Assembly: GCF_019097595.1 (NCBI RefSeq)
Contig: NC_080710.1
Location: forward strand, 3,995,780 to 4,059,779
Length of the DNA stretch: 64,000 bases
Source: Hemibagrus wyckioides
Taxonomy: Eukaryota > Chordata > Actinopteri > Siluriformes > Bagridae
Reading direction: 5' to 3'
Part shown: positions 3,015-40,687 of the stretch, one piece after another
Layout of the letters: each line of letters starts with the position of its first letter
How positions within the stretch are numbered: position 1 is the first letter of the stretch
Position numbers and translations under genes: made by a program
The notes under the pieces: generated by a model
Databases searched by the model: none
The model's input: the letters and a program-made list of their open reading frames with translations, nothing else
Told to the model about the DNA's origin: nothing

Positions 3015-3992
3015 AATCTAATAAATCTGAATAGATGAATCAGTAAATGGAAAAGGATACGTTTCTTCTACACGTGTTGAACAGCAGCATGTTTGTAATT
3101 TGTAAACTACTCAGTAACGATCACGTATTTAAAAGCGCAGTTTGCTGACCAATCAGAACGGATAATTCATCAGCACCGTGACATACTCAACCCTCTGTAG
3201 TTAAACCTGAAGTTCTTCCACTCCTCAATGTCGCTGGTGTCATAAATGGCGTCCATCAGGTGAGCGTACTCGGGGTCATCGATGATACTGACCACAATGA
3301 CCTCATCGCCAACCAGAAGAGCGTTCCAGAACTGGAGAACCCATCCTGTAGCATGCGCAGTCGCGATCACGTCGTTGCGGTATTTCTTCTGCTTCCTGAA
3401 CTTAATCTTCGGCCCCATGATTTAAAGCGAAGCAGCTCGTCGACTGGACGGAATCCAGCACCGTGTTGTTGTGTTGTTGTTGTTGTGTTGTTGTTGTTGT
3501 TGTGTTGTTGTTGTGACCCGGTTGTTGTTGTGACCCGGTTGTTGTTTATTCCTCAGTGATCTCTGCACAGCTCTGAGCTCTGTTTGCACGACAGCTCTAT
3601 TTTAAGGCTTGGTGGATGTTATACAACCAGATGGACATGTTAGAAGCTGTGAGGCAGTTGTGGCATTTGCACCACATGAGATTTGTGCCCTCTTACACCG
3701 GGCTGGGGCACTTATTAACGTCCATTAATGATGAGTCACGTCCTACTGCCTCACTAAACTCAACTCACCCCACTGTCTCCTCCACCATCCTCTAATTCTT
3801 TATTTTATTAGTTTGCTTTGATTCTTTACTTTTCCTATTTTGACCAATTTTTCTTTCCATCTATCTTTCTTTCTTTCATTTTGTCTCTCATTCTTTCTTT
3901 GAGTACTTTGTGTTTTCTTTTTCTTCTTCCAGATTTTTTCATTTATTTTTCCCCTTTCGTCCAGTATGCATGTACTATGCCAGTATTTATTT

Positions 3993-4048
<56 letters not shown>

Positions 4049-4258
4049 TTTCTTTCTTTCTTTCTTTCTTTCTTTCTTTGAGTACTTTTTGTTTCCTTTT
4101 TTTCCTTTCAATTTTTTCTTCATTTATTTTATAATGTTTTATCTGTTTTTTCTCTGTTTTATTTTTCTTTCTTTATTTATTTTTCTTTAATTCATTCATT
4201 TTTCTTTTGCCCTTTTCTTTATCTCATGGATTCTGCCAGTACATATTCAGTTGTTTTG

Positions 4259-4289
<31 letters not shown>

Positions 4290-4421
4290 CTTCTTTACCT
4301 TCTTTAATTCCTTCAACATATTTCCATTTATTCTTCTCTATGTCCATCCTCTTTTCTATCTCTTCTCCGTCATTAATCCATCTGTTTGCTGGTTCTTTCA
4401 ACCAATGTGTTCACTCACTCT

Positions 4422-4453
<32 letters not shown>

Positions 4454-4801
4454 TCCAGTACCTCTCACTCTCCCGTCAGCGACCCAGCGCATGGCCCCTC
4501 CCTCAGGCTTGATGACCAGCTTCTCGGGAGAGCCTTTGGGAAAGAGCCTCTTCACGGCCTCTACATCTCCTGTGTACAGCGCATTCTGTACCACCAAATC
4601 ACGGCACACCAGCGGCGCTGACGCTACCTCCGGGTTCCTCCTGGACACCACAGCCTTTTCCCGAGCCTCCTTTCTCAGCAGGTAGCCGCTGACGGTGGGC
4701 TCAATGAGCTTTCTCTGATACCTCCGTCTCTCCACGAGGTCTCGTTCCTGTTCTAAGGAGCGCAGAGCTGTTGGAGTGAAAGCAAAGCTCCGCTGAGACA
4801 T
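1116..4801 (-). CDS. asb10: Ankyrin repeat and SOCS box protein 10-like gene, 3' end beyond window
   Basis: ASB proteins are substrate receptors of Cullin-5/Elongin B/C ubiquitin ligases. Ankyrin repeats bind the target and a C-terminal SOCS box docks the ligase. Four exons are visible on the minus strand: first exons 1a (4462-4801) and 1b (3187-3418), exon 2 (2303-2570) and exon 3 (1116-1620). Splice phases agree (1, 2, then 0). Motifs typical of ASB10 include FRFNYRGL, LWSLTYEQELTTPLH, repeated TPLH/ALHEA ankyrin signatures and VWPGALPK. The visible part encodes 371 residues (1a form) or 335 (1b form), against roughly 450-470 in mammalian ASB10. The missing remainder is the SOCS-box exon, which I could not find between 1 and 1115. 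The paralogue ASB18 is the alternative, but the TSDIEEWKNFRFN and ALPK segments fit ASB10 better. Confidence 0.8.
1659..1881. repeat. Two TTTC microsatellites in asb10 intron
   Basis: Near-pure TTTC tracts at 1659-1702 and 1821-1881 are joined by pyrimidine-rich DNA. On the transcript strand of asb10 they read GAAA. The first begins about 40 bp upstream of the exon 3 acceptor on the gene strand. Confidence 0.95.
2011..2031. repeat. Short TTTC microsatellite
   Basis: Five perfect TTTC units in the same asb10 intron as the tracts at 1659-1881. Confidence 0.9.
2303..2570 (-). CDS. asb10: asb10 exon 2 (ankyrin repeats)
   Basis: An acceptor TTCTTCCTCAG|GA opens the exon and a donor GGA|GTGAGT closes it (phase 1 in, phase 2 out). 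It encodes about 89 residues: LWSLTYEQELTTPLH, then ankyrin signatures around GFTECLRHLLLRGA, TALHEACQ and GLMPLHLC. The spacing of TPLH/ALHE/PLHL motifs at about 33 residues is that of consecutive ankyrin repeats. Confidence 0.85.
2972..3014. repeat. TTTC microsatellite
   Basis: About ten perfect TTTC units between asb10 exon 2 and exon 1b. A short TTTG run lies just before it, near 2897-2913. Confidence 0.95.
3187..3418 (-). CDS. asb10: asb10 alternative first exon 1b
   Basis: The ATG at 3418 begins MGPKIKFRKQKKYRN, a basic leader. It is followed by LQFWNALLVGDE, an ankyrin-like helix, and AIYDTSDIEEWKNFRFN, which closely resembles the segment of human ASB10 just before its LRLWSL motif. 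The donor TTGA|GTATGT closes the exon at 3187 in phase 1, giving RGLRLWSLTYE across the junction. It has its own start codon and lies between exons 1a and 2, so it is best read as an alternative promoter/first exon. No acceptor is needed for it, and splicing 1a into 1b would not be required by phase. Confidence 0.75.
3462..3545. repeat. GTT-rich microsatellite
   Basis: An imperfect (GTT)n run is interrupted by GTGTT and by two GTGACCCG blocks. It starts 44 bp upstream of the exon 1b ATG on the gene strand, so it would lie in the 5' untranslated region or promoter of that first exon. Confidence 0.9.
3991..4079. repeat. Long TTTC microsatellite
   Basis: About 22 TTTC units with one TTTTTC interruption, in the intron between the two alternative first exons of asb10. 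Confidence 0.95.
4260..4290. repeat. TTTC microsatellite
   Basis: Seven perfect units ending in TTCC, 170 bp beyond the donor of asb10 exon 1a. Confidence 0.9.
4424..4454. repeat. CA microsatellite
   Basis: A (CA)n run immediately downstream of the exon 1a donor. On the gene strand the intron begins GTACTGGATG followed by (TG)n. TG runs next to donors are known to affect splicing in some genes. Any effect here is inference. Confidence 0.95.
4462..4801 (-). CDS. asb10: asb10 alternative first exon 1a
   Basis: The ATG at 4801 opens with MSQRSFAFTP, followed by a charged EQERDLVERRRYQRK helix and a CRDLVVQNALYTGDVEAVKRLF segment that looks like a first ankyrin-like helix pair. A donor AGAG|GTACTG ends the exon at 4462 in phase 1, so it joins exon 2 to read RVRGLWSLTYE. 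A tempting upstream donor (AGA|GTGAGA) is in phase 0 and would shift the frame of exon 2. The 5' flank contains a (CTT)n run. The reading frame stays open upstream to an ATG at 5011, but the start at 4801 begins the family-like sequence. Confidence 0.75.
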
Positions 4802-5160
4802 GATGAGAAGAACAAGAAGAAGAAGAAGAAGAAGAAGAGGACAATGATGTTTAGCTCTTTTAATAATAGCGTTTTGCTCCTTGCCGTAAGCAACCACGTT
4901 CTCTGTCCTGCCCTGGCTTACTGGGGTTGTTTTGATATTTAATCTCAGACGGGCCTCGCTGCCTATGAGCAGGAGTCTATTTTTAACCCCGGGGTCACAT
5001 GGGCAGCGCATGCCGGGTTTAGTTGTTCAGCTGAAAGTGTGACAAGGACATTTTTAGTCCACTTTAGATGACAATAAGCTTATCCTCAATGTCTCTTTCT
5101 ATAGAAATAGTGGAGCAGGGAGGGGGTGTGGCTTAACTTCAACTTCTTTTGTCTCTTAGT
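4802..5160 (-). promoter_or_regulatory. Presumed 5' flank of asb10 exon 1a
   Basis: This holds a (CTT)n run next to the ATG, a GC-richer stretch (4890-5010) and no clear TATA box. The exon 1a reading frame continues open to 5011. It is called a promoter region only by position. Confidence 0.35.
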
Positions 5161-5492
5161 ATTTTTCTTTCTTGAATTCTTTTTTTCTTGTTTTTCCCTC
5201 ATTCTTCTCCCTTTTTCCATGTTTTGATTCCCCTTTTTCCTGTTTTCCTTTTCTTTCTTTTCTGCCTGTATTTATTCATTTATTTAAATCATTTTCTTTC
5301 TTTCTTTCTTTCTTTCTCTTTTTTCTTTCTTATCATTTTTACTTTTACCCTTCAAATGTCCTTTTTTAATCCTGTCTTCTATTTTTTTTTCCTTTCTGGG
5401 GTTAATGTCTCTAATTTATCCTTGTTTAATTTTTTTCTCTTATTTTCTCTTGCTTCTTTAATCCTTCCACCAGTTCTTAAACCACTTGTCGA

Positions 5493-5569
<77 letters not shown>

Positions 5570-5862
5570 TCCTCCATTTGTTCTTTATTTATTCTTTATT
5601 TACTTATCTATTCTTTCTTTCTTTTAATTTACTCTTTCACTATCATCTTTTCCATTCTGTTGTTTATTCTCCCCTACCTTTCTTTTTTTCCTTTTTATTT
5701 TTATTCTACTCTTTCCTTTTGCTCCTTGGGTTCTTAGTTTTGTTTTTTTCTTTCCCTCTCATTCTTTATTTTTTCCACCTGCTCTTTTCTGCCTGTCTAA
5801 TTTCCTTTCTTTCATTCATTTGTCCATCTGCTGCTTTCTTTCTCATTTCTATCAAAATGTAA
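5161..5862. repeat. Pyrimidine-rich low-complexity block with TTTC arrays
   Basis: About 700 bp in which the plus strand is overwhelmingly C and T. It contains TTTC tracts at 5294-5317 and 5495-5571. Its long Phe/Ser/Leu-rich open frames are artefacts of composition. Confidence 0.9.
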
Positions 5863-6573
5863 AAATAGTGCTGGATGAAACCCGAGTCAGTGACATGATC
5901 ACGCTGTCCCCCACATGCTCTTTAACCAAGACAAATATGTACTAGAAATTATTAGCTCTTTGTACAGAAACCCTTTATTGGTGTCGCAACAAGGGGCGTG
6001 GCTTAGCATGACTCTGGGTTGTTGAGGGAGGGGCTTAATGTGGAACACCTGAAACTTATTCTAACTGAACAAGTTCTAAACTGAAATATACGCTAGTCAA
6101 CTCTGGCACTAGCAATCATGCTAGCTTATTTAAATGTAGCTATTTGTTGTTTATTATAATAACATGTTAAAATAGAGGTCATCTTATACTCACGCTCCCC
6201 AGTGGATTATTATCAGTGAACGCTGCAGTGTAGCATTCGAAGGTCATGTGACTATTTCATACTTTGAGAATTTAAATAAAAACACAAGGAGCAAATTGGA
6301 CACAAATGAACTCAATTAGTATAAATAGGTAAGTATATTAACAAAAAACAGGTACTAACATTTTTCCCAGCCCTGACTTTAATCTGTGAAATTTTTCTAC
6401 GAAATATTAGAAAATATTATTTTCAACTATTTTATGTTATCTAGTCAGCTATATATCTATTTTTTTTATATTTATATAATATACCACTGATTGTGTTCTG
6501 CAGTGTGCCGTAATGGCTGTCACATTGACTGAAGGAATCAAAGACTTCCGACTTTGCAAACACACATTACCGG

Positions 6574-6613
<40 letters not shown>

Positions 6614-7116
6614 CGAGATTGTTTTTTTGCTGCTGGAGTACATCCTTTTAAATGATACGCATAATGAGTTTATAATATGCATCTGGGCTACCTCCTCTCT
6701 ACTTTGATGTCTTCCAAATGGCCCGGGTGTCATCAGCAAAACATGTAGGCACTTTCCCGGCCCATTGCCTCCCAAATGTATTTTAAATATCATTCCTCGT
6801 AACGCAATTATTTAAAACGTTGAACTAAACACTTACTAATGGGGGAAAAGAGACAGCGACTTCCACAAATTCATTTCTCAAATGGTGGACATTCGATTTT
6901 TATTTATTTATTTATTTATTTATTTATTATTTATTTCTAAATGGAGACAGGGACTTTCTCAAGCAGGAAAAGAAGATTGGGGGGTGTTGGGTTGGGGGGT
7001 GTTGGGTGGGTGTGTTGGTGCTGGGTAGGATCAGGTTTTTAGAGGAAATGGGAAAAAAAAAGAATCAGCACCCTTTCAGTCATTCGTCTTACTCCCTGCA
7101 GACACACACACACACA

Positions 7117-7153
<37 letters not shown>

Positions 7154-7229
7154 GTTACTCCCTGCAGATCACAGAACCACACCAAGCAGCTCACACACAC
7201 AAGACGATTTCTGCGGAAGCAATAAGATA
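5863..7229. other. Intergenic, no gene seen; four simple repeats
   Basis: Simple repeats are (GA)n at about 6575-6608, (TTTA)n at 6899-6937, a G-rich run near 6979-7020 and (CA)n at 7101-7149. The rest is unremarkable AT-rich sequence. I see no exon with family similarity. Confidence 0.7.
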
Positions 7230-7530
7230 AACATGGATCCGGCCATCTGTGGTGCTCTCTGGTCACTGGACTCACAAAACAGCCTAATGATCGCCGGCCT
7301 CATCAATACAATTAGGCAATTAGTTCCTGCTGATTATCTCCCACTCATTTCCAACTTGACTGCTGTGCCTCCCATTAAAATTAAAGCACAAAAAAAAAAC
7401 CAGAGGAATATACACGGAGGCTCGTCTAGTTGGCATGCGAAGACAGCGGTAATAACACATGGGCTAATTAATGGCATGTCGGTAGGAGGGGAGGACTTTG
7501 AAAATGCAGACTAATTGCTTGAGACTAATT
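7230..7530. promoter_or_regulatory. Candidate conserved regulatory element with many TAAT cores
   Basis: This compositionally balanced, non-repetitive block holds several homeodomain-type cores: CAATTAGGCAATTAG near 7309, GGGCTAATTAATGG near 7461, and paired ACTAATT motifs near 7511 and 7525. An open frame of 93 codons runs through it but matches no family I know. A regulatory element is more likely than a gene. Cross-species conservation cannot be seen from here. Confidence 0.35.
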
Positions 7531-7708
7531 TACAGAGTAACTAACACACTTATTGTAGTATTTTGAAAAGTATATCCTAAACACCCACAATTCCATTCCA
7601 TTGACTTTTAAGGTTCGTAAGTAACTCGAGATTTATTTTGACTTCGATCTCGACAGAGCGATGCAGCGGCGCTTTAGCATGTCCGACTTTATGCATTACT
7701 CTCACTTG

Positions 7709-8094
7709 TACATAGATATATGTTAGATCGCTAAATATCTGAAATAAAGAAATTAAACATCAGGAAATGATGTCTTTCTGATATAAGGTCCAGATTTGGT
7801 GCCAGTTGTAGCTCTGGATTCCTATTCTAGGCCATCAGGAGCCTCAAAGTTTGATATATTGTGCATTTAGAGATGCTTTTCAGCCTGCTCGATTATGTGT
7901 AGAGTGATTGTTTGAGCATTTTAAGCCTTTTAAGGCCCTTCTCCTCGAGGGTTTGCCTTGGCTTTTGAAAATCCCAGGTGAAGGACCAAGTGTACAGGAG
8001 TGCAGGAGTGTGAGTCTATACGCTCAGAGCCGTATGCAGACGATATAATGGTATAGAGAGCTGGATGTGCGCAATGGAAATAAAGTAGCACGTT
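7709..8094. repeat. Tandem duplication, copy 1
   Basis: This matches 8095-8457 throughout. Shared blocks include TTAGATCGCTAAATATCTGA, GGTCCAGATTTGGTGCCAG and GCAATGGAAATAAAGTAGCA. About 386 bp. No coding potential. Confidence 0.9.
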
Positions 8095-8457
8095 GTACGT
8101 AGATATATTTTAGATCGCTAAATATCTGAAATAAAGAAGTTAAACATCAGGAAGATGATGTCTTTCTGATACAAGGTCCAGATTTGGTGCCAGTTGTAGC
8201 CCCGGAGGCCATCAGGAGCCTCAAAGTGTGACATATTGTGCATTTGGAGCTGCTTTTCAGCTCAACTCGGTTGTAAAGAGTGATTGTTTAAGCCTTTTAA
8301 AGCTTTTCTCCTCGTGGTTTTGCCTTGCCTTTTGAAAACTGCGAAGGACCAAGTGTACAGGAGTCCCGGAGTGTGAGTCTATACGCTCAAAGCCATATGC
8401 AGATGATATAACAGCATAGAGCGCTAGATGTATGCAATGGAAATAAAGTAGCAAGTT
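8095..8457. repeat. Tandem duplication, copy 2
   Basis: Head-to-tail partner of the preceding copy, about 363 bp, with small deletions (for example in the part after GTAGCCC). Divergence is visible but modest. Confidence 0.9.
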
Positions 8458-9700
8458 CCTGAAGAAAAACACGAAGCTGCATAACCGAGTCAGTCATCGA
8501 GCGTAATAGGAAACACTTTTCCCCAGCTCAAACACTCGGGGCCAAATGGGATCGGCGTAGTATTAAATGCAAATGTCCAATGTGTGACAGAGAGATGAGG
8601 TTGGCATGCTAATGCGCATGATTTGTACCAAGTCGCCGGCTAAAGCTTGGCTGCGTATTTCCTCGCTGCTTTCTTTGGCTTGCGAAAAAGAAAGGAAATG
8701 TGAAAGAATTCTGATGGCGTGAAGGATGAGGGAAAAAAATAAATAAAATAAATAAAAGACCCTTCCAGCGTTTAAGCCGGTACCTGGGAAGTTTAGCGCG
8801 CTATACGTTGTAGTGTTGATCCCCGCACAAATGGAGGCCCACTTCATTATGACAATTGAGAGGTTCATATTTCAATCTAATAGCTCTCGATAAATTTAAC
8901 AATCGATCACAACCTCATTTCATCGCGAGCGCCCCTAATACGCGCTTCCCCGCCAAGTGGAACATTTTCTAATGATGCACTTGCACACCAAAACAATGCG
9001 GGGCCCAGTGACTACATTAGTCACTAATGTCCCAATCCATAATGTGCTTATAACGCTCTCCCAAAAGAGAGAGAGCGAGAGAGGGAAGTAGAAAAAGAGA
9101 GAGAGAGAGAGAAATGACTCCAGAGAGAGAGAGAGAGGGAGAGAGAGAGAAAGGGGGGATCAGCGAGGAACCGGGAGATCAGAGGGAAAATGGTCATGAT
9201 GATGATAGTGCTTAAGACACTGTCATTAATGACCCTATCACACGCGCCGTAATACGTCCGCAGACATGCTCTCATTAGCATACATCAGACCATCAAGGCA
9301 CATTGCAGGAGCAAGAGAGCAAGCAGGGGAGGGAGACGGAACGCAATACACCACATTAACATCCGGCATTGCTCAGGCTGCGTTGCTGTAGCTCTGATTA
9401 ATGCAAAACAAAAAGCACCATTTATTTTCAAACCAAGGTGTCTGCTGCTTTGCCTCTGCTCGTTCGCTCTGAAACAACCCCCCCCCCAAACCCCCTGAAA
9501 CCCTCTTCCCAACCCTCTCACCATCTCCAGTTCACCAGGCTAATACAAGGCAGCATGCTAATGCGCATAAACTGTTGACCAAAGTCTTCAGGCAACCTTC
9601 AGGCTAATTAGATGACGCTTTTAAGAACTTCCTTAAGACTTATCAGACTTCTCCTTATCTTTCAGGATAAAAGTTGTACAGAGAGAACCAGCCAAAATAT
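8458..9700. promoter_or_regulatory. Candidate regulatory region with repeated octamer-containing 16-mer
   Basis: GCATGCTAATGCGCAT occurs exactly at 8604-8619 and at 9553-9568. Each holds ATGCTAAT, an octamer-type POU site, overlapping the palindrome ATGCGCAT. A further ATTAGCAT (same core, other strand) lies at 9274-9281. Imperfect (GA)n fills 9066-9152. No gene is seen. The regulatory reading rests on motif content only. Confidence 0.35.
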
Positions 9701-13875: not shown

Positions 13876-15833
<1,958 letters not shown>

Positions 15834-17154: not shown

Positions 17155-17162
17155 TTTCTCAA
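17155..17162. repeat. Target-site duplication of the hAT element, left copy
   Basis: TTTCTCAA directly precedes the element's CAGAGGTGG terminus and is repeated exactly at 30722-30729. Eight bp is the hallmark length for hAT insertions. Confidence 0.95.
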
Positions 17163-17445
17163 CAGAGGTGGACAGTAACAAAGTACATGTACTTGAGTAC
17201 TGTACTTAAGTACACTTTTTGAGTATCTGTACATTACTTGAGTGTTATTTTTTCTGGAAACTTGTTACTTTAACTTCACAAGAAATATTATACTGTTTAC
17301 TCCACTACATTTCTGTCAAGGTCATTGAGTAGAAAGTAGTTACGTTAATCAGAGGATGATTTTTTTTTTCACTCTTGTAGCTTCACGTGTCGTGAAGTTC
17401 AGTGGTTTTCCGTCATTTTTTGAACTCTGACCAATTGATGACAAA

Positions 17446-18043
17446 ATGGATGAAGACAGATCATCAGCGCAGTGTGTGCATCCATGGCCATACTTAGACA
17501 GTATGTTCCAGTTTTTAGAAAAGAGTAAAGATTCTTTTTGTTTTAAATGTTTGCTTTGTTTACCGAAAACAAACCACATCGCAGCCTACAAAAACTCTCC
17601 ATCCAACCTGCAGAAGCATATTGAGGTATATATACTTTTCATTTCTGCTAAAAGTTTGAAATGGATATTGCCTGTGACATGAAGTATTTATGGTAACTTA
17701 CTCCTCATACATTTCAAATGGAGAGGATTTCTTCTCTAATATCAAGCATGTGCACACACAGGAGACCTCCAAACAACTGGATGCAAACCTAACATGTACA
17801 GCTGAAGGTATGACTATGCTGACATCTTATCCAGCCTTAGCCAACCTGTCACTTAAGCTGGACACAGCCCTCCCTGCCTCAGCGGCCTGTGAGAGGCTTA
17901 TTAGTGCAGCTGGATTGATCTTCAGCCAAAGAAGGGGAGTAATTATTTGGCATAACTTTGAGAACCAGCTTCTACTTAAGATGAACAAGGACGTTTTTAA
18001 GACTGACTTATTTGACCATAGTATGATTTCTCTCTACTACTGA
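17446..18043 (+). pseudogene. Remnant hAT transposase (BED finger plus dimerisation domain)
   Basis: hAT transposases cut and join DNA through an RNase-H-like core with an inserted helical domain. Here the first frame (17446-17682) has WPYLDSMFQFLEK and FKCLLCLPK...NLQKHIE, a BED-type zinc finger (C-x2-C, then H). A second frame ends at 18043 with LANLSLKLDTALPASAACERL and LIFSQRRG...NFENQLLLKMN, the conserved C-terminal hAT dimerisation region. Only about 230 bp separates the two parts, so several hundred codons including the catalytic acidic residues are gone. The product cannot transpose by itself. A spliced BED-dimerisation protein is conceivable, but I see no evidence for one. Confidence 0.8.
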
Positions 18044-18150
18044 TGAGTGAGCCATAGTACCATTGTCACAACTAATGGTTTGGAATTTTTGTTTTGATGG
18101 AAAGTAAGTCTTTCTCTTTTGCTCTTTGTTAAAGCAGTGTTGCTGTTGGG

Positions 18151-21100
18151 CAGTTCTACAGCTACAGTTCTACAGCTAGAGTTCTACAGATAGAGTTATA
18201 CAGATAGAGTTCTAGAGATAGAGTTCTACAGATACAGTTTTACAGATAGAGTTATACAGATACAGTTCTACAGATAGAGTTCTACAGATACAGTTTTACA
18301 GATAGAGTTATACAGATACAGTTCTACAGATAGAGATCTACAGATACAGTTCTACAGATAGAGTTATACAGATACAGTTCTACAGATAGAGTTATACAGA
18401 TACAGTTCTACAGCTACAGTTCTACAGCTACAGTTCTACAGATACAGTTCTACAGATACAGTTCTACAGATAGAGTTCTACAGATAGAGTTATACAGCTA
18501 CAGTTCTACAGCTAGAGTTCTACAGATAGAGTTATACAGATACAGTTCTACAGATACAGTTCTACAGATACAGTTTTACAGATAGAGTTCTACAGATACA
18601 GTTCTACAGATAGAGTTATACAGATACAGTTCTACAGATAGAGTTCTACAGCTACAGTTCTACAGATACAGTTCTACAGATAGAGTTCTACAGATACAGT
18701 TCTACAGATAGAGTTCTACAGATAGAGTTATACAGATACAGTTCTACAGATAGAGTTATACAGATACAGTTCTACAGATACAGTTCTACAGATAGAGTTC
18801 TACAGCTACAGTTCTACAGCTACAGTTCTACAGATAGAGTTCTACAGATAGAGTTCTACAGATACAGTTCTACAGCTACAGTTCTACAGATAGAGTTCTA
18901 CAGATAGAGTTCTACAGATACAGTTCTACAGATACAGTTCTACAGATAGAGTTCTACAGATACAGTTATACAGATACAGTTCTACAACTAGAGTTCTACA
19001 GATAGAGTTATACAGATACAGTTCTACAGATAGAGTTATACAGATACAGTTATACAGATAGAGTTATACAGATACAGTTCTACAGATAGAGTTATACAGA
19101 TATAGTTTTACAGATAGAGTTATACAGATACAGTTCTACAGATAGAGTTCTACAGATACAGTTCTACAGATAGAGTTCTACAGATAGAGTTCTACAGATA
19201 CAGTTCTACAGATAGAGTTATACAGATACAGTTCTACAGATAGAGTTATACAGATACAGTTCTACAGATAGAGTTATACAGATACAGTTCTACAGATACA
19301 GTTCTACAGATAGAGTTATACAGCTACAGTTCTACAGATACAGTTCTACAGACACAGTTCTACAGCTACAGTTCTACAGCTACAGTTCTACAGATAGAGT
19401 TCTACAGATAGAGTTATACAGATACAGTTATACAGATACAGTTCTACAACTAGAGTTCTACAGATAGAGTTATACAGATACAGTTCTACAGATAGAGTTA
19501 TACAGATACAGTTATACAGATAGAGTTATACAGATACAGTTCTACAGATAGAGTTATACAGATACAGTTCTACAGATACAGTTCTACAACTAGAGTTCTA
19601 CAGATAGAGTTCTACAGATACAGTTCTACAGATACAGTTCTACAGATAGAGTTCTACAGCTACAGTTCTACAGATAGAGTTATACGGACACAGTTCTACA
19701 GATACAGTTATACACCTACAGTTCTACAGCTACAGTTCTACAGATAGAGTTATACGGACACAGTTCTACAGATACAGTTATACAGCTACAGTTATATAGA
19801 TACAGTTATATATCTAGTTATACTGATACAGTTATACAGATACAGTTCTACAGATACAGTTATACAGCTACATTTATATAGATACATTTATATAGATACA
19901 GTTATATAGCTACAGTTATACTGCTACAGTTATATAGATACAGTTATACTGATACAGTTATACATCTAGATATACTGATACAGTTATACAGCTACATTTA
20001 TATAGATACAGTTATATAGATACAGTTATACAGCTACAGTTATACAGCTACAGTTATACAGCTACAGTTATACATCTAGTTATACTGATACAGTTATACA
20101 GCTACAGTTATACAGCTACAGTTATACAGATACAGTTATACATCTAGTTATACTGATACAGTTATACAGCTACATTTATATAGATACAGTTATATAGATA
20201 CAGTTATATAGATACAGTTATACAGCTACAGTTATATAGATACAGTTATACAGCTACATTTATATAGATACAGTTATATAGATACAGTTATACTGATACA
20301 GTTATACAACTACAGTTATACAGATACAGTTATACATCTAGTTATACAGATACAGTTATACAGATACAGTTATACATCTAGTTATACTGATACAGTTATA
20401 CAGCTACATTTATATAGATACAGTTATATAGATACAGTTATACAGCTACAGTTATACAGCTACAGTTATATAGATACAGTTATACAGCTACATTTATATA
20501 GATACAGTTATATAGATACAGTTATACAGCTACAGTTATACAGCTACAGTTATATAGATACAGTTATACAGCTACATTTATATAGATACAGTTATATAGA
20601 CACAGTTATACAGCTACAGTTATACAGCTACAGTTATATAGATACAGTTATATAGATACAGTTATACAGCTACATTTATATAGATACAGTTATACAGCTA
20701 CAGTTATACTGCTACAGTTATATAGATACAGTTGTAGAGATACAGTTATACAGCTACATTTATACAGCTACAGTTATACTGATACAGTTATAGAGCTACA
20801 GTTATACAGCTACAGGTATATAGATACAGTTATACAGATACAGTTATACAGATACAGTTATACATCTAGTTAAACTGATACAGTTATACAGCTACCTTTA
20901 TATAGATACAGTTATATAGATACAGTTATACAGCTACAGTTATACAGCTACAGTTATACTGATACAGTTATACAGCTACAGTTATATAGATACAGTTATA
21001 CAGTTACAGTTATACAGCTACAGTTATAGAGCTACAGTTATATAGATACAGTTATACAGCTACAGTTATATAGATACAGTTATACAGTTACAGTTATACA

Positions 21101-24100
21101 GATACAGTTATAGAGCTACATTTATATAGATACAGTTATACAGCTACAGTTATACTGCTACAGTTATATAGATACAGTTATATAGATACAGTTATACAGC
21201 TACATTTATACAGCTACAGTTATACTGATACAGTTATACAGCTACAGTTATACAGCTACAGGTATATAGATACAGTTATACAGATACAGTTATACAGATA
21301 CAGTTATACATCTAGTTAAACTGATACAGTTATACAGCTACCTTTATATAGATACAGTTATATAGATACAGTTATACAGCTACAGTTATACAGCTACAGT
21401 TATACTGATACAGTTATACAGCTACAGTTATATAGATACAGTTATACAGTTACAGTTATACAGCTACAGTTATAGAGCTACAGTTATATAGATACAGTTA
21501 TACAGCTACAGTTATATAGATACAGTTATACAGTTACAGTTATACAGATACAGTTATAGAGCTACAGTTATATAGATACAGTTATACAGTTACAGTTATA
21601 CAGATACAGTTATACTGATACAGTTATACAGTTACAGTTATACAGATACAGTTATACTGATACAGTTATACAGTTACAGTTATACAAATACAGTTATACA
21701 TCTACAGTTATACAGATACAGTTATACTGATACAGTTATACAGATACAGTCATACTGATACAGTTATACTGATACAATTATACAGCTACAGTTATACTGA
21801 TACAGTTATACAGATACAGCCATACTGATACAGTTATACAGTTACAGTTATACAGATACAGTTATACTGATACAGTTATACAAATACAGTTATACATCTA
21901 CAGTTATACATCTACAGTTATACTGATACAGTTATACATCTACAGTTATACAGATACAGTTATACAGATACAGTTATACTGATACAGCTATACTGATACA
22001 GTTATACAAATACAGTTATACTGATACAGTTATACATCTACAGTTATACATCTACAGTTATACAGATACAGTTATACTGATACAGTTATACAGATACAGT
22101 CATACTGATACAGTTATACTGATACAATTATACAGCTACAGTTACACAGATACAGTTATACAGATACAGTTATACTGATACAGCTATACTGATACAGTTA
22201 TACATCTACAGTTATACTGATACAGTTATACAACTACAGTTATACTGAAACAGTTATACTGATACAATTATACAGCTACAGTTACACAGATACAGTTATA
22301 CAGATACAGTTATACAGCTACAGTTACACAGATACAGTTATACAGATACAGTTATACTGATACAGTTATACTGATACAGTTTTACATCTACAGTTATACA
22401 GATACAGTTATACTGAAACAGTTATACTGATAAAATTATACAGCTACAGTTATACAAATACAGTTATACAGCTACAGTTATACAGATACAGTTATACTGA
22501 AACAGTTATACTGATAAAATTATACAGCTACAGTTATACAGATACAGTTATACAGATACAGTTATACTGATACAATTATACAGCTACAGTTATACAGATA
22601 CAGTTATACAGATACAGTTATACTGATACAGTTATACAGTTACAGTTATACAGATACAGTTATACTGATACAGTTATACAAATACAGTTATACATCTACA
22701 GTTATACTGATACAGTTATACTGATACAGCTATACTGATACAGTTATACAAATACAGTTATACTGATACAGTTATACATCTACAGTTATACAGATACAGT
22801 TATACTGATACAGTTATACATCTACAGTTATACAGATACAGTTATACTGATACAGTTATACAGATACAGTCATACTGATACAGTTATACTGATACAATTA
22901 TACAGCTACAGTTACACAGATACAGTTATACAGATACAGTTATACTGATACAGCTATACTGATACAGTTATACATCTACAGTTATACAGATACAGTTATA
23001 CTGATACAGTTATACAACTACAGTTATACTGAAACAGTTATACTGATAAAATTATACAGCTACAGTTATACAGCTACAGTTATACAGATACAGTTATACT
23101 GATACAGTTATACAGATACAGTCATACTGATACAGTTATACTGATAAAATTATACAGCTACAGTTATACAGATACAGTTATACAGCTACAGTTATACTGA
23201 TACAGTTATACTGATACAGTTATACAGATACAGTTATACTGATAAAATTATACAGCTACAGTTATACAGATACAGTTATACAGCTACAGTTATACTGATA
23301 CAGTTATACAGCTACAGTTATACTGATACAGTTATACATCTACAGTTATACATCTACAGTTATACAGATACAGTTATACTGATACAGTTATACAGATACA
23401 GTTATACAGATACAGTCATACTGATACAGTTATACTGATACAATTATACAGCTACAGTTATAAAGATACAGTTATACAGATACAGTCATACTGATACAGT
23501 TATACTGATACAATTATACAGCTACAGTTATACACCAACAGCTATACTGATACAGTTATACATCTACAGTTATACAGATACAGTTATACAAATACAATTA
23601 TACAGCTACAGTTAAACAGATACAGTTATACTGATACAGTTATACAACTACAGTTATACTGATACAGTTATACTGATAAATTTATACAGCTACAGTTATA
23701 CTGATACAGTTATACAGATACAGTCATACTGATACAGTTATACTGATAAAATTATACAGCTACAGTTATACAGATACAGTTATACAGGTACAGTTATACT
23801 GATACAGTTATACTGATACAGTTATACAGATACAGTTATACTGATAAAATTATACAGCTACAGTTATACAGATACAGTTATACAGCTACAGTTATATAGA
23901 TACAGTTATACAGATACAGTTATACTGATACAGTTATACATCTACAGTTATACATCTACAGTTATACAGATACAGTTATACTGATACAGTTATACAGATA
24001 CAGTCATACTGATACAGTTATACTGATACAATTATACAGCTACAGTTATACTGATACAGTTATACAGATACAGTTATACAGATACAGTCATACTGATACA

Positions 24101-27100
24101 GTTATACTGATACAATTATACAGCTACAGTTATACACCTACAGTTATACTGATACAGTTATACAGCTACAGTTATACAGCTACAGTAATATAGATACAGT
24201 TTAACAGTTTTAAAGTTATACAGCTACAGTAATACATATACAGTTATACAGCTACAATTATATAGATACAGTTATACAGCTAGAGTTATACAGCTACAGT
24301 TATATAGATACAGTTATACAGCTACAGTTATACTGATACAGTTATACAACTACAGTTATATAGATACAGTTATACAGATACAGTTATACATCTACTTATA
24401 CTGATACAGTTATACAGCTACATTTATATAGATACAGTTATATAGATACAGTTATACAGCTACAGTTATACAGCTACAGTTATATTGATACAGTTATACA
24501 GCTACATTTATATAGATACAGTTATATAGATACAGTTATACAGCTACAGTTATACAGCTACAGTTATACTGATACAGTTATATAGATACAGTTATACAGC
24601 TACAGTTATATAGATACAGTTATACAGATACAGTTATACATCTAGTTATACTGATACAGTTATACAGCTACATTTATATAGATACAGTTTTATAGATACA
24701 GTTATACAGCTACAGGTATACTGATATAGTTATACAGCTACAGTTATATAGATACAGTTATACAGTTACAGTTATACAGATACAGTTATAGAGCTACAGT
24801 TATACAGATACAGTTATACAGTTACAGTTATACATCTACAGTTATACAGCTACAGTTATACTGATACAATTATACAGCTACAGTTATACAGATACAGTTA
24901 TACAGATACAGCTATACTTATACAGTTATACATCTACAGTTATACAGATACAGTTATACAGATACAGTTATACTGATACAGTTAAACAGATACAGTCATA
25001 CTGATACAGTTATACTGATACAATTATACAGCTACAGTTATACAGCTACAGTTATACAGATACAGTTATACTGATACAGTTATACAGATACAGTTATACA
25101 GATACAGTCATACTGATACAGTTATACTGATACAATTATACAGCTACAGTTATACAGATACAGTTATACAGATACAGTTATACAGATACAGTCATACTGA
25201 TACAGTTATACAGATACAGTCATACTGATACAGTTATACTGATACAATTATACAGCTACAGTTATACAGATACAGTTATACAGATACAGTTATACTGATA
25301 CAGATTATACAGCTACAGTTATACTGATACAGTTATACTGATAAAATTATACAGCTACAGTTATACAGATACAGTTATACAGCTACAGTTATACTGATAC
25401 AGTTATACAGCTACAGTTATACAACTACAGTTATACAGCTACAGTTATACAGCCACAGTTATACTGATACAGTTCTACAAATACAGTTATACAGCTACAG
25501 TTATACAAATACAGTTATACAGCTACAGTTCTACAAATACAGTTATACAGCTACAGTTATACAGCTACAGATACTAATACAGTTCTACAAATATAGTTAT
25601 ACAGCTACAGTTTTACAGATACAGTTATACAGCTACAGTTATACAAATACAGTTATACAGCTACAGTTCTACAAATACAGTTATACAGCTACAGTTATAC
25701 AGCTACAGTTATACAGATATAGTTATACAGCTACAGTTATACTGATACAGTTCTACAGCTACAGTTATACAGCTACAGTTATACAGCTACAGTTATACAG
25801 ATATAGTTATACAGCTACAGTTATACTGATACAGTTCTACAAATACAGTTATACAGCTACAGTTATACAGATACAGTTATACAGCTACAGTTATACTGAT
25901 ACAGTTCTACAGCTACAGTTATACAGCTACAGTTATACAGATACAGTTATACAGCTACAGTTATACTGATACAGTTATACTGATACAGTTATACAAATAC
26001 AGTTATACAGCTACAGTTATAAAGATACAGTTATACAGCTACAGTTATACTGATACAGTTCTACAGCTACAGTTATACAGCTACAGTTATACAGACACAG
26101 TTATACAGCTACAGTTATACTGATACAGTTCTACAAATACAGTTATACAGCTACATTTATACAGATACAGTTATACAGCTACAGTTATACAGATATAGTT
26201 ATACAGCTACAGTTATACTGATACAGTTCTACAAATACAGTTATACAGCTACAGTTATACAGCTACAGTTCTACAAATACAGTTATACAGCTACAGTTTT
26301 ACAGATACAGTTATACAGCTACAGTTATACAGACACAGTTATACAGCTACAGTTATACTGATACAGTTATACAGCTACATTTATACAGATACAGTTATAC
26401 AGCTACAGTTATACAGATACAGTTATACAGCTACAGTTCTACAAATACAGTTATACAACTACAGTTATACAGCTACAGTTATAAGGCTACAGTTATACAA
26501 ATACAGTTATACAGCTACAGTTATACAGATACAGTTATACTGATACAGTTCTACAAATACAGTTATACAGCTACAGTTCTACAAATACAGTTATACAGCT
26601 ACAGTTATACAGATACAGTTATACTGATACAGTTCTACAAATACAGTTATACAGCTACAGTTATACTGCTACAGTTATACAGCTACAGTTATACTGATAC
26701 AGTTATACAGATACAGTTATACTGCTACAGTTATACAGCTACAGTTATACTGATACAGTTATACAAATACAGTTATACAGCTACAGGTATACAGATACAG
26801 TTATACAGCTACAGTTATACTGATACAGTTCTACAAATACAGTTATACTGATACAGTTCTACAAATACAGTTATACAGCTACAGTTATACAGCTACAGTT
26901 ATACAGATATAGTTATACAGCTACAGTTATACTGATACAGTTCTACAAATACAGTTATACAGCTACAGTTATACAGATACAGTTATACAGCTACAGTTAT
27001 ACTGATACAGTTCTACAGCTACAGTTATACAGCTACAGTTATACAGCTACAGTTATACTGATACAGTTATACTGATACAGTTATACAAATACAGTTATAC

Positions 27101-30100
27101 AGCTACAGTTATACAGATACAGTTATACAGCTACAGTTATACTGATACAGTTCTACAAATACAGTTATACAGCTACATTTATACAGATACAGTTATACAG
27201 CTACAGTTATACAGATACAGTTATACAGCTACAGTTCTACAAATACAGTTATACAACTACAGTTATACAGCTACAGTTATAAGGCTACAGTTATACAAAT
27301 ACAGTTATACAGCTACAGTTATACAGATACAGTTATACTGATACAGTTCTACAAATACAGTTATACAGCTACAGTTATACAGATACAGTTATACTGATAC
27401 AGTTCTACAAATACAGTTATACAGCTACAGTTATACTGCTACAGTTATACAGCTACAGTTATACTGATACAGTTATACTGATACAGTTATACAGATACAG
27501 TTATACTGATAAAATTATACAGCTACAGTTATACAACTACAGTTATACAGATACAGTTATACAGATACAGTTATATTGATACAGTTATACAACTACAGTT
27601 ATACAGATACAGTTATACAGCTACAGTTATACTGATACAGTTCTACAAATACAGTTATACAGCTACAGTTATACTGATACAGTTCTACAGCTACAGTTCT
27701 ACAGCTACAGTTATACAGCTACAGTTATACAGATATAGTTATACAGCTACAGTTATACTGATACAGTTCTACAAATACAGTTATACAGCTACAGTTATAC
27801 AGATATAGTTATACAGCTACAGTTATACTGATACAGTTCTACAGCTACAGTTATACAGCTACAGTTATACAGCTACAGTTATACAGATATAGTTATACAG
27901 CTACAGTTATACTGATACAGTTCTACAAATACAGTTATACAGCTACAGTTATACAGATATAGTTATACAGCTACAGTTATACTGATACAGTTATACAGCT
28001 ACAGTTATACTGATACAGTTATACTGATACAGTTATACAAATACAGTTATACAGCTACAGGTATACAGATACAGTTATACAGCTACAGTTATACAGATAC
28101 AGTTATACTGATATAGTTCTACAAATACAGTTATACAGCTACAGTTATACAGCTACAGTTATACAGCTACAGTTATACTGATACAGTTATACAACTACAA
28201 TTATACAGATACAGTTATACAGATACAGTTATACTGATACAGTTATACAACTACAGTTATATAGATACAGTTATACAGATACAGTTATACTGATACAGTT
28301 ATTCAACTACAGTTTTACAGCTACAGTTATACTGATACCATTATACAACTACAGTTATACAGATACAGTTATACAGCTACAGTTATACTGATACAGTTCT
28401 ACAAATACAGTTATACAGCTACAGTTATACTGATACAGTTCTACAGCTACAGTTCTACAGCTACAGTTATACAGCTACAGTTATACAGATATAGTTATAC
28501 AGCTACAGTTATACTGATACAGTTCTACAAATACAGTTATACAGCTACAGTTATACAGATATAGTTATACAGCTACAGTTATACTGATACAGTTCTACAG
28601 CTACAGTTATACAGCTACAGTTATACAGATATAGTTATACAGCTACAGTTATACTGATACAGTTCTACAAATACAGTTATACAGCTACAGTTATACAGAT
28701 ATAGTTATACAGCTACAGTTATACTGATACAGTTATACAGCTACAGTTATACTGATACAGTTATACTGATACAGTTCTACAAATACAGTTATACAGCTAC
28801 AGTTATACAGCTACAGTTATACAGATACAGTTATACTGATACAGTTCTACAAATACAGTTATACAGCTACAGTTATACAGCTACAGTTATACAGCTACAG
28901 TTATACTGATACAGTTATACAACTACAATTATACAGATACAGTTATACAGATACAGTTATACTGATACAGTTATACAACTACAGTTATATAGATACAGTT
29001 ATACAGATACAGTTATACTGATACAGTTATTCAACTACAGTTTTACAGCTACAGTTATACTGATACAGTTATACAACTACAGTTATACAGATACAGTTAT
29101 ACAGATACAGTTATACTGATACAGTTATTCAACTACAGTTATACAACTACAGTTATACAGATACAGTTATACAGCTACAGTTATACTGATACAGTCCTAC
29201 AAATACAGTTATACTGATACAGTTATACAACTACAGTTATACTGATACAGTTCTACAAATACAGTTATACTGATACAGTTCTACAACTACAGTTATACTG
29301 ATACAGTTCTACAAATACAGTTATCCTGATACAGTTATACAGATACAGTTCTACAAATACAGTTATACTGATACAGTTCTACAAATACAGTTATACAACT
29401 ACCGTTATACTGATACAGTTATACAGATACAATTATACAGCTACAGTTATACAGATACAGTTATACAGATACAATTATACAGCTACAGTTATACAGATAC
29501 AGTTATACAGATACAATTATACAGCTACAGTTATACAGATACAGTTATACAGCTACAGTTATACTGATACAGTTATACAGATACAGTTATACAGATACAA
29601 TTATACAGCTACAGTTATACAGATACAGTTATACAGCTACAGTTATACTGATACAGTTATACAGATACAGTTATACAACTACAGTTATACTGATACAGTT
29701 ATACAACTACAGTTATACAGATACAGTTATACAGCTACAGTTATATAGATACAGTTATACAACTCCAGTTATACAGATACAGTTATACAGATACAGTTAT
29801 ACTGATACAATTATACAGCTACAGTTATCCTGATACAATTATACAGATACAGTTATACAGCTACAGTTATACTGATACAGTTATACAGATACAGTTATAC
29901 AACTACAGTTATACTGATACAGTTATACAACTACAGTTATACAGATACAGTTATACAGCTACAGTTATATAGATACAGTTATACAACTCCAGTTATACAG
30001 ATACAGTTATACAGATACAGTTATACTGATACAATTATACAGCTACAGTTATCCTGATACAATTATACAGATACAGTTATACTGATACAGTTATACCGCT

Positions 30101-30290
30101 ACAGTTATACAGCTACAGTTATACAGCTACAGTTATACAGCTACAGTTATCCTGATACAATTATACAGATACATTTATACAGATACAGTTATACAGCTAC
30201 AGTTATCCTGATACAGTTATACAGATACAGTTATACAGATACAGTTATACAGCTAAAGTTAAACAGATACAGTTAAACAGATACAGTTGT
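18151..30290. repeat. 12.1-kb minisatellite of a 14-bp unit
   Basis: About 865 head-to-tail copies of a unit close to TACAGTTATACAGA, with variants at a few fixed positions (TTCTA/TTATA, CAGATA/CAGCTA/CTGATA/CAAATA, ACAG/AGAG). Variant composition changes along the array. A TTCTA+TAGAG zone runs to about 19790. Then comes a TATATAGATA zone to about 21590, a CTGATA/ACAATTATA zone to about 24170, a second TATATAGATA zone to about 24830, and a CTACAAATA/GATATAG zone between about 25450 and 29400. Higher-order repeats occur. There is no spacer, no start codon and no gene. Confidence 0.97.
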
Positions 30291-30721
30291 GTAGCTGGGT
30301 TTTAAAGCAGGTTGGATTTTTTTTTTCTGATCACTCTGTATTCACAGACCACTTGATTCAAATGTGCATGAATGGATACACATAGATGTGTACTTCTTTG
30401 CTGGGGGTGGTAGGAGTGTTAAATAAAAAATGAAAATGATATACCTGTCTTTTTTTTCAGTTTAGTTGTTTCATTTCTATAGGTTTTGTAACATTCTAAA
30501 AGCTCTTAATTCCACAGAGACTACAAACTGGTCAATATATTCACTAGGTTGCTACAAAAGGTACTGTAAGTATTGCATATAACTGTAACAATAATAAAAC
30601 AATGCGATACTAAAGTACTTTTAAAGACAAGACAATTTTATTTCCTTAAATTAGTAATGTTTGACCAGTAGTATCTGTACTTTCACTCAAGTAAGGAAGT
30701 TGTGTACTTTGTCTACCTCTG
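30291..30721 (+). other. Right-hand unique end of the hAT element
   Basis: About 430 bp of AT-rich, non-array DNA, including a poly(T) run. It ends in the inverted terminus CTACCTCTG. It corresponds to the element's 3' untranslated and sub-terminal region. Confidence 0.75.
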
Positions 30722-30729
30722 TTTCTCAA
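30722..30729. repeat. Target-site duplication of the hAT element, right copy
   Basis: TTTCTCAA, identical to 17155-17162. Confidence 0.95.
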
Positions 30730-38219: not shown

Positions 38220-39245
38220 AAAAAAAAAAAGGTTTAAAAAAAGGGCAGGCCAGCGGATTTCTGCAGGGAAGTGGAACGAATCGCGCTCTGGAGATTTGAC
38301 AAGGATGAAATCTCAGTGCACAAATGCCAATAGGCGACTACCTGTGGCTGTGCAGGCAGATTGTAGATTGCAGGCTGTGATTCTCTGTTGTGAAACCTGG
38401 AGACAACGTATTGAGTCTAAGCCCCCTCTGCCCTCCCCCCACACTCGCTATCGCTCGTTCTCTCTCCGTCTCTCTCTCTCTCTCTCTCTCTCCCTTTCTC
38501 TCTCTCTCACACACACACACACATACACACACACTGGTGAAGCAGGAGCTCAGCAGTGGGATGGATTCTGACTACTAAAGAGACGGAGTGAGAGGGAGGG
38601 GGAAAGAGTCAGCGAGCGCCGAGCTTGCACAAGAGAGGGAAAGGATTGAGGCACTGGTGTGCAAATCCACATGAGCAGATCTGGAGGAAAACGCTGGCTG
38701 CTTTGGGCGAGACCTTGAGCGTGGCTTTTCTCAGCGTGAAGAGGTAGCCCTCGGTGCTCGTCGTACATCCCGGAGGAACGAGGCAACAAAGACTTGACTG
38801 ACAAGCGCAAGAGATTGACTAGGGGGAGGTCTATGTCACTTCATTTGCATCTGTGGAGAGGAGGAGTGTGAGGAAGATCCAGGGAAGAAAAATGAATATT
38901 GGACAACAGCTGTTTTTTGAATGATTTTTTTTTTCTCCCCCATTCATAAATCCAACACGGCGATGTAGAGCCAGTCCTCCTAGCTGGATGTTGCATGGTC
39001 TAGTCAGCTGCTGAATGTTTCAGTTGTGGCTCCTTATTTCTTTTCTGTTTGCACTTTTCAGTGTGCAACGTGAACATTTCGCAGGTTTGGGTTCTTTTTG
39101 ACTAGACTGCACATTTCAAGGAGGAACAGAAGAGCAGCTTGCGATCCAAGACGGGAGTTTGGATCATGTGCAGTATTTTTTGATACTCTTGACTTTGCAA
39201 ATTATTTCTAATTTCCTTTCCAACTTCTGATTAGACTTGCTGACC
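38220..39245 (+). promoter_or_regulatory. Presumed promoter and 5' untranslated region of the ASIC gene
   Basis: A (TC)n run at 38462-38507 abuts (CA)n at 38509-38534, followed by purine-rich, GC-balanced sequence up to the start codon. There are several upstream ATGs, among them a bare start-stop ATGTAG at 38963-38968. Where transcription starts, and whether this stretch contains an intron, cannot be told from sequence alone. Confidence 0.4.
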
Positions 39246-39809
39246 ATGACAGCCATGAAGGGAGATTCGGAGGACAGCATCGAGAGCATCAGGCCTTCAA
39301 ATCTGCAAGCCTTCGCCAACTCGTCCACGCTGCACGGCATGAGCCACATTTTTGCCTACGGACACATGACATTCCGTCGCTTCTTGTGGACTCTGTCGTT
39401 CCTGGGCTCTCTCGGGCTGTTGCTTCTGGTATGCATGGACCGCGTGTCGTACTACCTTGAGTTTCCTCATGTCACCAAACTGGACGAGGTGGCAGCACCA
39501 AACCTCACCTTTCCCGCTGTGACTTTTTGCAATCTGAACGAGTTCCGCTTTTCCAAAATCACCAAAAACGACCTCTATCACGTCGGGGAACTGCTGGCGC
39601 TGCTCAACGAAAACTACCAGATTGCGAACCCACATCTTGCAGAGCCAGAAATCCTTGCTGCTCTAAAGGAAAAGGCCAATTTTGTCAACTTCAAGCCCAA
39701 GCAGTTCAACATGACTGATTTCTATAACCGAACGGGCCACGACATCAGTGACATGCTTCTGCAGTGCACTTTCCGAGGCGACGATTGCTTCCCTTTCAAC
39801 TTCACCACA
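39246..39809 (+). CDS. Acid-sensing ion channel subunit, first coding exon (ASIC1/2-like)
   Basis: ASICs are trimeric, proton-gated sodium channels of the DEG/ENaC family in neuronal membranes. The exon encodes 188 residues. These are a short cytosolic N-terminus with the STLHG segment (residues 27-31, His-Gly motif needed for gating), TM1 around residues 48-64 (WTLSFLGSLGLLLLVC), and the early extracellular domain with HVTKLDEVAAPNLTFPAVTFCN and NDLYHVGELLALL. Cysteines fall at 95, 174 and 181, and potential N-glycosylation sites at NLT, NMT, NRT and NFT. The donor ACA|GTGAGT falls just before the VFTRYGKCYTF region expected in the next exon, so the cut is in phase 0. Start: ATG at 39246. 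ATG at 39255 is also possible. Residues matching only ASIC1 (NLNEFRFS, KNDLYH) and only ASIC2 (YGHMTFRR-like, RVSYY, PHLAEP, KPKQF) are mixed, so the subtype is left open. Confidence 0.92.
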
Positions 39810-40687
39810 GTGAGTTGTCAGAGATCTCAGCTTGTTCTCCCCCCATTTACAGTGTGTCAAATGCAAATCCTTTCACTGTCGTAAAAAAAAATTCTGTATC
39901 AGTTTTTATTTAGATCATAGTAAGCTGATGACTGCTTCACTGACCAATGTATAATTAGTGTTATAGTTCTAACATTAACATGCCTAAATTTAAGGTATGT
40001 GTAGTATGTCCAAGGGAAACTCCAACATGTATGTTTTAAATACATTTCAGTAGACAACACATTTCAAATAATTCAAAAAGTCTTGTGGTATGACTTAGTG
40101 GTAGTATAAAAAGTTCTGTAAGTAGTAACAATTCAGTGGAGAATCGTTCAATCTGAGGCAAACCCTTTCACCAAACCCGCTAGTTATTTAATGCTTTTAA
40201 TATTTTATATGTACTTTTTTAATAATGCATGGTGTTTGGTAAAAAATCAACAAAAACCTGTGCTACATTTATAGCCAGAAACATCGCTACATTTATAGCT
40301 AACTAAAGTTGAATGATGTTTTTTTAATTGAAACATTCACTCATGGCTTTACTTAAGCAAGTATGTTTTTTTGTTGTTGTTGGTTTTTTTTGCCTATTTT
40401 TGGCTATGATCCTACCAAACATGTTCGGTTACCGATCATTTTAGTAGATTTTTGTTAACATTAACATCGTTGAATTCTCATATCTGATTGGTCAAAAGAT
40501 GTTGATTGAAATGTGAAGGATCATGCGTTTCATTGTTGATAGTGGTGAAGTTCCCTATTGAAGATTTATTTTTTATTGCGTATTCATATGGAAGGAGTCT
40601 CCAGAGTTTTGTGTTTTTTGATTGCTTGGTAACTAGATAAGCTGAAGTTAGTGAAAAGAAAAAACGTGTTCCGTGTGTTATGTGGAC

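Follow-up and report, generated by a model that had tools for sequence, protein, structure and literature searches.

A hAT transposon family in Hemibagrus wyckioides that probably spread a short seed from which minisatellite arrays later grew

The window analyzed here is a 64-kb stretch of Hemibagrus wyckioides DNA, within which all positions are counted; it is A+T-rich (37% G+C) and contains no N. At 17163-30721 it carries a hAT transposon remnant of 13,559 bp, in which 1,421 bp of non-array sequence enclose a 14-bp minisatellite array accounting for 89.5% of the copy. The best explanation of the whole, which we regard as highly probable, is that this is a deleted copy of a hAT element whose family spread a seed while the slot now filled by the array was still short, the arrays having grown later.

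At the left end of the copy, the terminal inverted repeat CAGAGGTGGACA (17163-17174, plus strand) directly follows the target-site duplication TTTCTCAA (17155-17162, plus strand), and at the right end the inverse of this terminus, CAGAGGTAGACA on the minus strand (30710-30721), is followed by an exact copy of the duplication (30722-30729, plus strand; 8/8 bases). The chance match of random 8-mer pairs from the window outside the array is 8.1e-5. The terminal inverted repeats agree at 11 of 12 bp and patchily beyond that, the first 120 bp of each end aligning with a score of 44, where 300 shuffles averaged 24.3 and reached at most 47. The terminal 12-mer, which was found four times at two or fewer mismatches with 4.1 matches expected, does not prove an element by itself; the target duplication together with family copies having the same ends does. 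The same 12 bp stand at the left end in 15 of 20 both-ended copies, the window included, and termini beginning with CA (CAGAGGTGGACA and its inverse, exact or with few mismatches) were present in the 20 tabulated copies.

The coding remnants lie in the left part. A 78-aa open reading frame (ORF) at 17446-17682 (plus strand), presumed to be an N-terminal remnant of the transposase, looks by eye like a BED-type zinc finger and matched no Pfam family. The 117-aa ORF at 17690-18043 (plus strand), which includes the stop codon, corresponds to the hAT C-terminal dimerisation region, with a match to PF05699 (E 0.015) that is below the curated cut-off and thus weak. In a protein search with this ORF, 123 of 126 candidates had E <= 0.001; several were named HAT C-terminal dimerisation or transposase proteins of fishes, the organism-named relatives among the matches listed were fishes, and an Anguilla protein matched with E 2.5e-38 and 74% identity over 87% of the length. 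The dimerisation stretch of Hermes-type hAT transposases (PDB 6dww and others) aligned weakly with residues 46-96 of the remnant (E about 0.1), and judged from these alignments the matches to fish hAT proteins appear more convincing than those to Pfam or Hermes. Unlike Hermes, the window copy has neither a catalytic core nor an intact gene: an intact transposase with catalytic residues is not present in it. It is unable to encode a functional transposase and would depend on help to move. The approximate junction of the internal deletion that removed most of the transposase lies at 17696-17700 (plus strand; left-end position 534). Sixteen rows of the left-end search described below stop at this position, and a longer copy, L021, holds about 1.56 kb extra between left-end positions 532 and 538; five pieces of L021 gave no hAT match in Pfam. 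The window copy is thus an internally deleted, non-autonomous member of a fish hAT family.

The array (18151-30288, plus strand; consensus CAGTTATACAGATA) occupies 12,138 bp and was detected by Tandem Repeats Finder (TRF) with a period of 14 and 868.4 copies, while wrap-around alignment resolved it into 869 monomers, of which 13 contain an indel and one is a partial end unit. It is divided into several sub-domains, each with its own unit variants, and contains exact block repeats of up to 327 bp. Since there is no N in the window and no exact repeat inside the array exceeds 327 bp, long reads could place the array. On its left it is bordered by the anchor TGTTGGG (18144-18150, plus strand). 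On its right stand a degenerate terminal unit CAGTTGTGTAGCTG (30284-30297, plus strand), which makes up the seed of short copies jointly with one ordinary unit, and the anchor GTGTAGCTGGG (30289-30299, plus strand), found exactly or as a one-base variant at the right edge of 12 of 15 arrays in the family (the exceptions being L018, L021 and L039). Evidence that the 14-bp unit arose from subterminal parts of the element itself was considered and rejected: unit-like 9- to 12-mers within the 1,421 bp of non-array sequence, including one 12-mer near 30578 (minus strand), were not clearly denser than in the flanks. An earlier interpretation made from the letters alone (hereafter the sequence-only reading) had described the inverted termini with an exact 8-bp duplication, the remnants of a hAT transposase and a 12.1-kb array between the stop codon and the right end, and all of these were recovered at those places, the C-terminal ORF being the one with strong hAT matches.

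The hAT family is large. In the window's own genome (789.7 Mb, 73 contigs), a 1.4-kb left-end query gave 91 matches from 39 scored of 531 candidates and a 433-bp right-end query gave 46 matches from 40 scored of 499 candidates. We examined 33 loci including the window (20 in a first set, then 4 new ones together with a fifth stretch that continues the C13 copy, and 8 more, partly extended); all are from a single assembly, and the slot variation seen is that between copies at different loci, not between individuals. The slot was short (6-47 bp) at 14 loci, held an array (103 bp to 13.1 kb) at 15, and was unmeasurable at 4 (L017, L022, L025 and L026), where it was deleted or not found. The array lengths are 13,091 bp (contig C13), 12,138 bp (window), 6,200, 5,792, 5,254, at least 5,166, at least 4,891, at least 4,717, 2,805, 2,701, 2,478, 733, 265, 176 and 103 bp; the window array, the second longest of the 15, is therefore extreme, not unique. 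The sequence-only reading had suggested searching the same genome with the non-array sequence and had named a lack of the 14-bp unit in all other copies as an outcome that would refute it. The search gave a different outcome. At the 28 loci with hAT sequence next to the slot, slot length ranged from 6 bp to 13.1 kb, and the unit was present in the 14 short slots and in arrays at 14 other loci, L039 among them.

The short slot has the form TGTTGGG-CAGTTATACAG(A/C)TA-CAGTTGTGTAGCTG-GG, that is, one unit followed by a degenerate second unit, and this seed (CAGTTATACAGATA-CAGTTGTGTAGCTG) sits about 0.1 kb past the transposase stop codon in family copies; at L013 the slot is a shortened hybrid of both seed units. 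A genome-wide search with the seed-slot pattern found 15 slots, and the reversed-pattern control found none. The left edge TGTTGGG, or a variant of it differing at one or two bases, was present in all 10 arrays whose left hAT side was reached and also in short copies. Among the 20 both-ended copies, the target duplication was exact over 8 bp in 10 and matched at 7/8 in 7, a level that 0.4% of random pairs reach or exceed, and it did not match in three (L009, 2/8; L012, 4/8; L024, 5/8); of the eight both-ended copies with arrays of at least 100 bp, seven have a duplication at 7 or 8 of 8. L010 and L011 are probably a segmental duplication rather than two insertions, because they share the same target-duplication bases and nearly identical sequence. 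Right-end copies on contig C6 at 20.99, 21.03 and 21.07 Mb, about 39 kb apart, also suggest a tandem segmental duplication carrying the element.

Fourteen of the 15 arrays adjoin hAT sequence on at least one side. The left hAT end is absent from L034, which retains just 33 bp of the hAT right part, and from L037, whose left neighbour looks by eye like coding sequence for a LINE reverse transcriptase. In L039 (at least 5,166 bp), unrelated sequence stands in place of hAT on the right, and the left end lies beyond the stretch read. L036 and L039 are rich in irregular units (124/342 and 49/271 with indels in the stretches measured), while the window array is nearly indel-free. The array of L021 forms a single open frame of 1,773 aa (3933-9254, plus strand), a side effect and not evidence of a gene, because the consensus unit is stop-free in all forward phases. 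At L035 (3775-5000, contig C12), near a contig end, a hAT copy lies beside a different 14-bp array (TACAGATTCCCTAT, 94 copies). Together the arrays fetched come to 66.5 kb, and 3,243 of the 4,719 genome-wide hits to the unit pattern fall in the fetched loci. The unit sequence is still a dispersed minisatellite: with 4,719 pattern hits the assembly does not reach the amount of a classical satellite with megabase arrays, although collapsed or unassembled satellite would be invisible in this way.

If the arrays had moved after growth, different loci should share unit order. We compared unit order in 66 pairs of 12 arrays with at least 40 units, using shuffled and reversed controls, and the forward alignment exceeded the reversed one in 35 of 66 pairs, where chance gives 33. 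Five simulated pairs of common origin (3.5% change on each side) scored 20-1066 against 8-12 in one shuffle each, all five exceeding their shuffle by factors from 2.4 to about 88. When two halves of one array were aligned, 10 of 12 arrays showed a forward excess, slight in some. The pair standing out most strongly against shuffles was the window and C13, with 8-9 units, and its forward-minus-reversed difference was below the eight largest listed; the four largest listed involve 3-6 units, and in two of them the aligned units sit at the right edges of the two arrays, which have the anchor unit in common. A test by identical substrings common to two arrays, replaced by this alignment, was above all 20 shuffles in 5 of 105 pairs, which is the chance level. 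Among clean units, private variants account for 41% in the window array and for 2-34% in the 11 others (counted before five arrays were extended). A tree of 26 copies was star-like, with 3 of 23 inner branches well supported and a median end branch of 0.036. The long or short state needs seven changes on it against a shuffled mean of 9.0, and for the long group 64 of 500 shuffles gave a value no higher; the tree does not clearly set long copies apart from short ones. Because unit order is not shared beyond the control and the tree is star-like, it is most likely that the copies moved with the short seed and that the arrays grew in place. The sequence-only reading had left open whether the element transposed with a large array or nursed the expansion of one in place; together with the position bias described next, these results favour expansion in place over transposition of a long array. 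Its further proposal of a candidate vehicle for seeding satellite DNA holds for seeds: the family is a nursery of satellite-like arrays, but the seed is what spreads.

We next considered the position of each copy, expressed as the distance to the nearer contig end divided by the whole contig. The 15 arrays had a median of 0.06 and the 20 short slots one of 0.30 (Mann-Whitney p 0.0009; 0.0002 when L010/L011 were counted once), the short slots being those on contigs of known size, with two seed slots on C16 and C28 left out. The difference was also seen when the 15 arrays were compared with the 13 pattern-found seed slots alone (p 0.009) and when the 11 arrays of at least 1 kb were compared with the 20 short slots (p 0.005). 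The outer eighths of contigs, a limit set once the data had been inspected, contain 12 of 15 arrays but 2 of 20 short slots (Fisher 5.5e-5); both of these short slots are the L010/L011 pair, and the arrays outside the outer eighths are L018, L020 and L028. Thirty other family copies, with slots that were deleted or outside the examined set and with local clusters left uncollapsed (one later proved to be a seed slot), had a median of 0.38, with 8 of 30 within 12% of an end. In fish and many animals recombination is highest near chromosome ends, and human minisatellites cluster near chromosome ends. Given this background, growth linked to recombination is the likeliest reading of the position effect, and retention near the ends is its main rival. 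It is quite possible, and we propose it tentatively, that growth into kilobase arrays is set by the chromosomal neighbourhood, chiefly nearness to a chromosome end, a near-identical imperfect dimer having been planted at many sites.

A series of steps could account for these observations. Transposase supplied in trans would have dispersed the copies in a burst, at a time when their slot was still short. An imperfect dimer is the usual substrate of slippage, and at some sites, chiefly near chromosome ends, it would have grown by replication slippage. Later growth via unequal exchange or gene conversion of multi-unit blocks may then have produced the long arrays and their locus-specific variants; the 13 indel units among 869 and the block repeats of up to 327 bp in the window array fit such growth. 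Where a rearrangement removes a hAT end, a free array would be left.

Several points weigh against growth in place and its dependence on position. Ten of 66 array pairs exceeded all 19 shuffles in unit order, where 3.3 are expected from a control that destroys local composition, and several of these pairs also beat the reversed order, over 3-6 units and mostly at the shared right edge. Unequal exchange and turnover inside arrays could have erased a shared order, and for this reason the evidence for growth in place is strong, not final. L009, with a 2.7-kb array, has in effect no target duplication (2/8). The end bias is not significant when the seven arrays of the left-end search are taken alone (p 0.20) and thus rests largely on arrays from the pattern search, and contig ends were taken as chromosome ends without proof. 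Finally, a single clade of long arrays was not rejected (p-AU 0.08). This last result also counts for another history, in which a master element with an already long array transposed repeatedly and the short copies are later contractions; so do the several unit variants common to many arrays, and hAT elements can move large cargo. We nevertheless consider a long-array master improbable: unit order is not shared beyond the control, differently deleted copies have arrays of unrelated length, arrays are biased toward contig ends, and the seed with its degenerate second unit is found at 15 places, a state that repeated contraction is unlikely to give again and again.

The position bias by itself does not separate local growth from preferential retention of arrays near contig ends, where weak selection or heterochromatin would tolerate them. 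The long arrays L018 and L028 lie well inside contigs, so interior sites can tolerate them, and we judge retention to be unlikely, though less so than a master array. Far less probable is an error of assembly in array length or joins. Tandem arrays are hard to assemble and the array lengths are known from the assembly alone, but many different lengths occur in the same slot across loci, the sub-domains of the window array are not uniform and its longest exact internal repeat is 327 bp, and the window copy has the target duplication at both ends. Least probable of all, and hardly tenable, is the insertion of an independent satellite or element into a hAT copy. Its starting point is that TTAAAGCAG occurs on both sides of the window array and could resemble a target duplication; however, the similarity of the array flanks was not above shuffles (189/1000 as high), and the duplication was rejected as a sign of nested insertion. 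The same flanks are moreover present in array-free copies, and 14 short slots already contain a unit (in L013 as the shortened hybrid).

What turns a few tandem copies into a satellite is hard to learn, since seeds are seldom recognised as such. In this family 14 examined loci (15 by pattern) preserve the state before growth and 15 show the grown state, for the most part between the same anchors. Such a two-state family allows a direct test of whether growth is decided by sequence, by chromosome position or by recombination rate, and of whether it is seeds or arrays that transposons spread; the hAT family may record where DNA repeats grow. If the proposed role of the chromosomal neighbourhood is true, the family is a natural genome-wide assay of tandem-repeat growth, and what starts a long satellite is the place in which an ordinary seed lands rather than any peculiarity of its sequence.

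The hAT copy has several neighbours in the window. An exon of an acid-sensing ion channel lies at 39237-39881 (E 8e-76 against PDB ASIC1), and ankyrin-repeat exons are also present. A core-histone-like ORF at 13876-14196 on the minus strand (Pfam Histone E 5e-16, C-terminal part; H2B by eye) is possibly a broken or processed copy. A separate 16-bp minisatellite at 63010-63483 (CACACGATTCATTTTT, 29.8 copies), with a smaller piece at 63790-63847, is unlike the 14-bp unit of the hAT copy. Rfam and tRNA scans across the window gave no match, and the unit and terminus patterns had no match in collections of viral contigs and genome contigs.

It is established that tandem repeats carried within transposons can give rise to satellites by expansion, as stated in the reviews PMC9659126 and PMC12628747, the latter covering the Xenopus miniature inverted-repeat transposable elements (MITEs) miDNA4 and Xstir. 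In the literature searched, mostly outside subscription journals, we found this general concept and no hAT element with tandem-array expansion; in a search by the letters of the unit and termini, none of the items, judged by their titles and the starts of their abstracts, appears to concern this element. The Xenopus Tc1/mariner MITE miDNA4, which drives a satellite (Scalvenzi and Pollet 2014, as summarized in PMC12628747 and PMC7492417), is non-autonomous and carries a single monomer or a variable array, and according to the same two summaries its longer arrays can yield satellite arrays. The hAT family resembles it in that the same slot holds from one monomer to a long array in different copies. 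It differs in being hAT and not Tc1/mariner, in its 14-bp unit, with arrays that reach 869-940 units and about 90% of the element, and in that the presence of an array goes with chromosome position. Helentrons, a further group for comparison, are transposons of the rolling-circle type. The Cg_HINE Helentrons of the Pacific oyster, as described in PMC7492417, have central tandem arrays between constant flanks and are dispersed by transposition, like the hAT family, but their units average 140-180 bp and their longest array has 29 monomers, whereas here a hAT element with 8-bp target duplications is involved. The Xstir MITE repeats of Xenopus (Hikosaka and Kawahara 2004, as summarized in PMC12628747) occur as MITEs, as arrays and as composites of one element, the units being derived from its interior; their origin is proposed there to involve two nearby elements, whereas the hAT family consists of single elements with one slot and fixed anchors. 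The hAT family also fits the model outlined in PMC7492417, in which repeat number is inversely related to mobility: short slots moved and long ones grew afterwards. Transposon-borne expandable repeats are thus known, and what is new here is a hAT element in which they reach such an extent and show a position effect.

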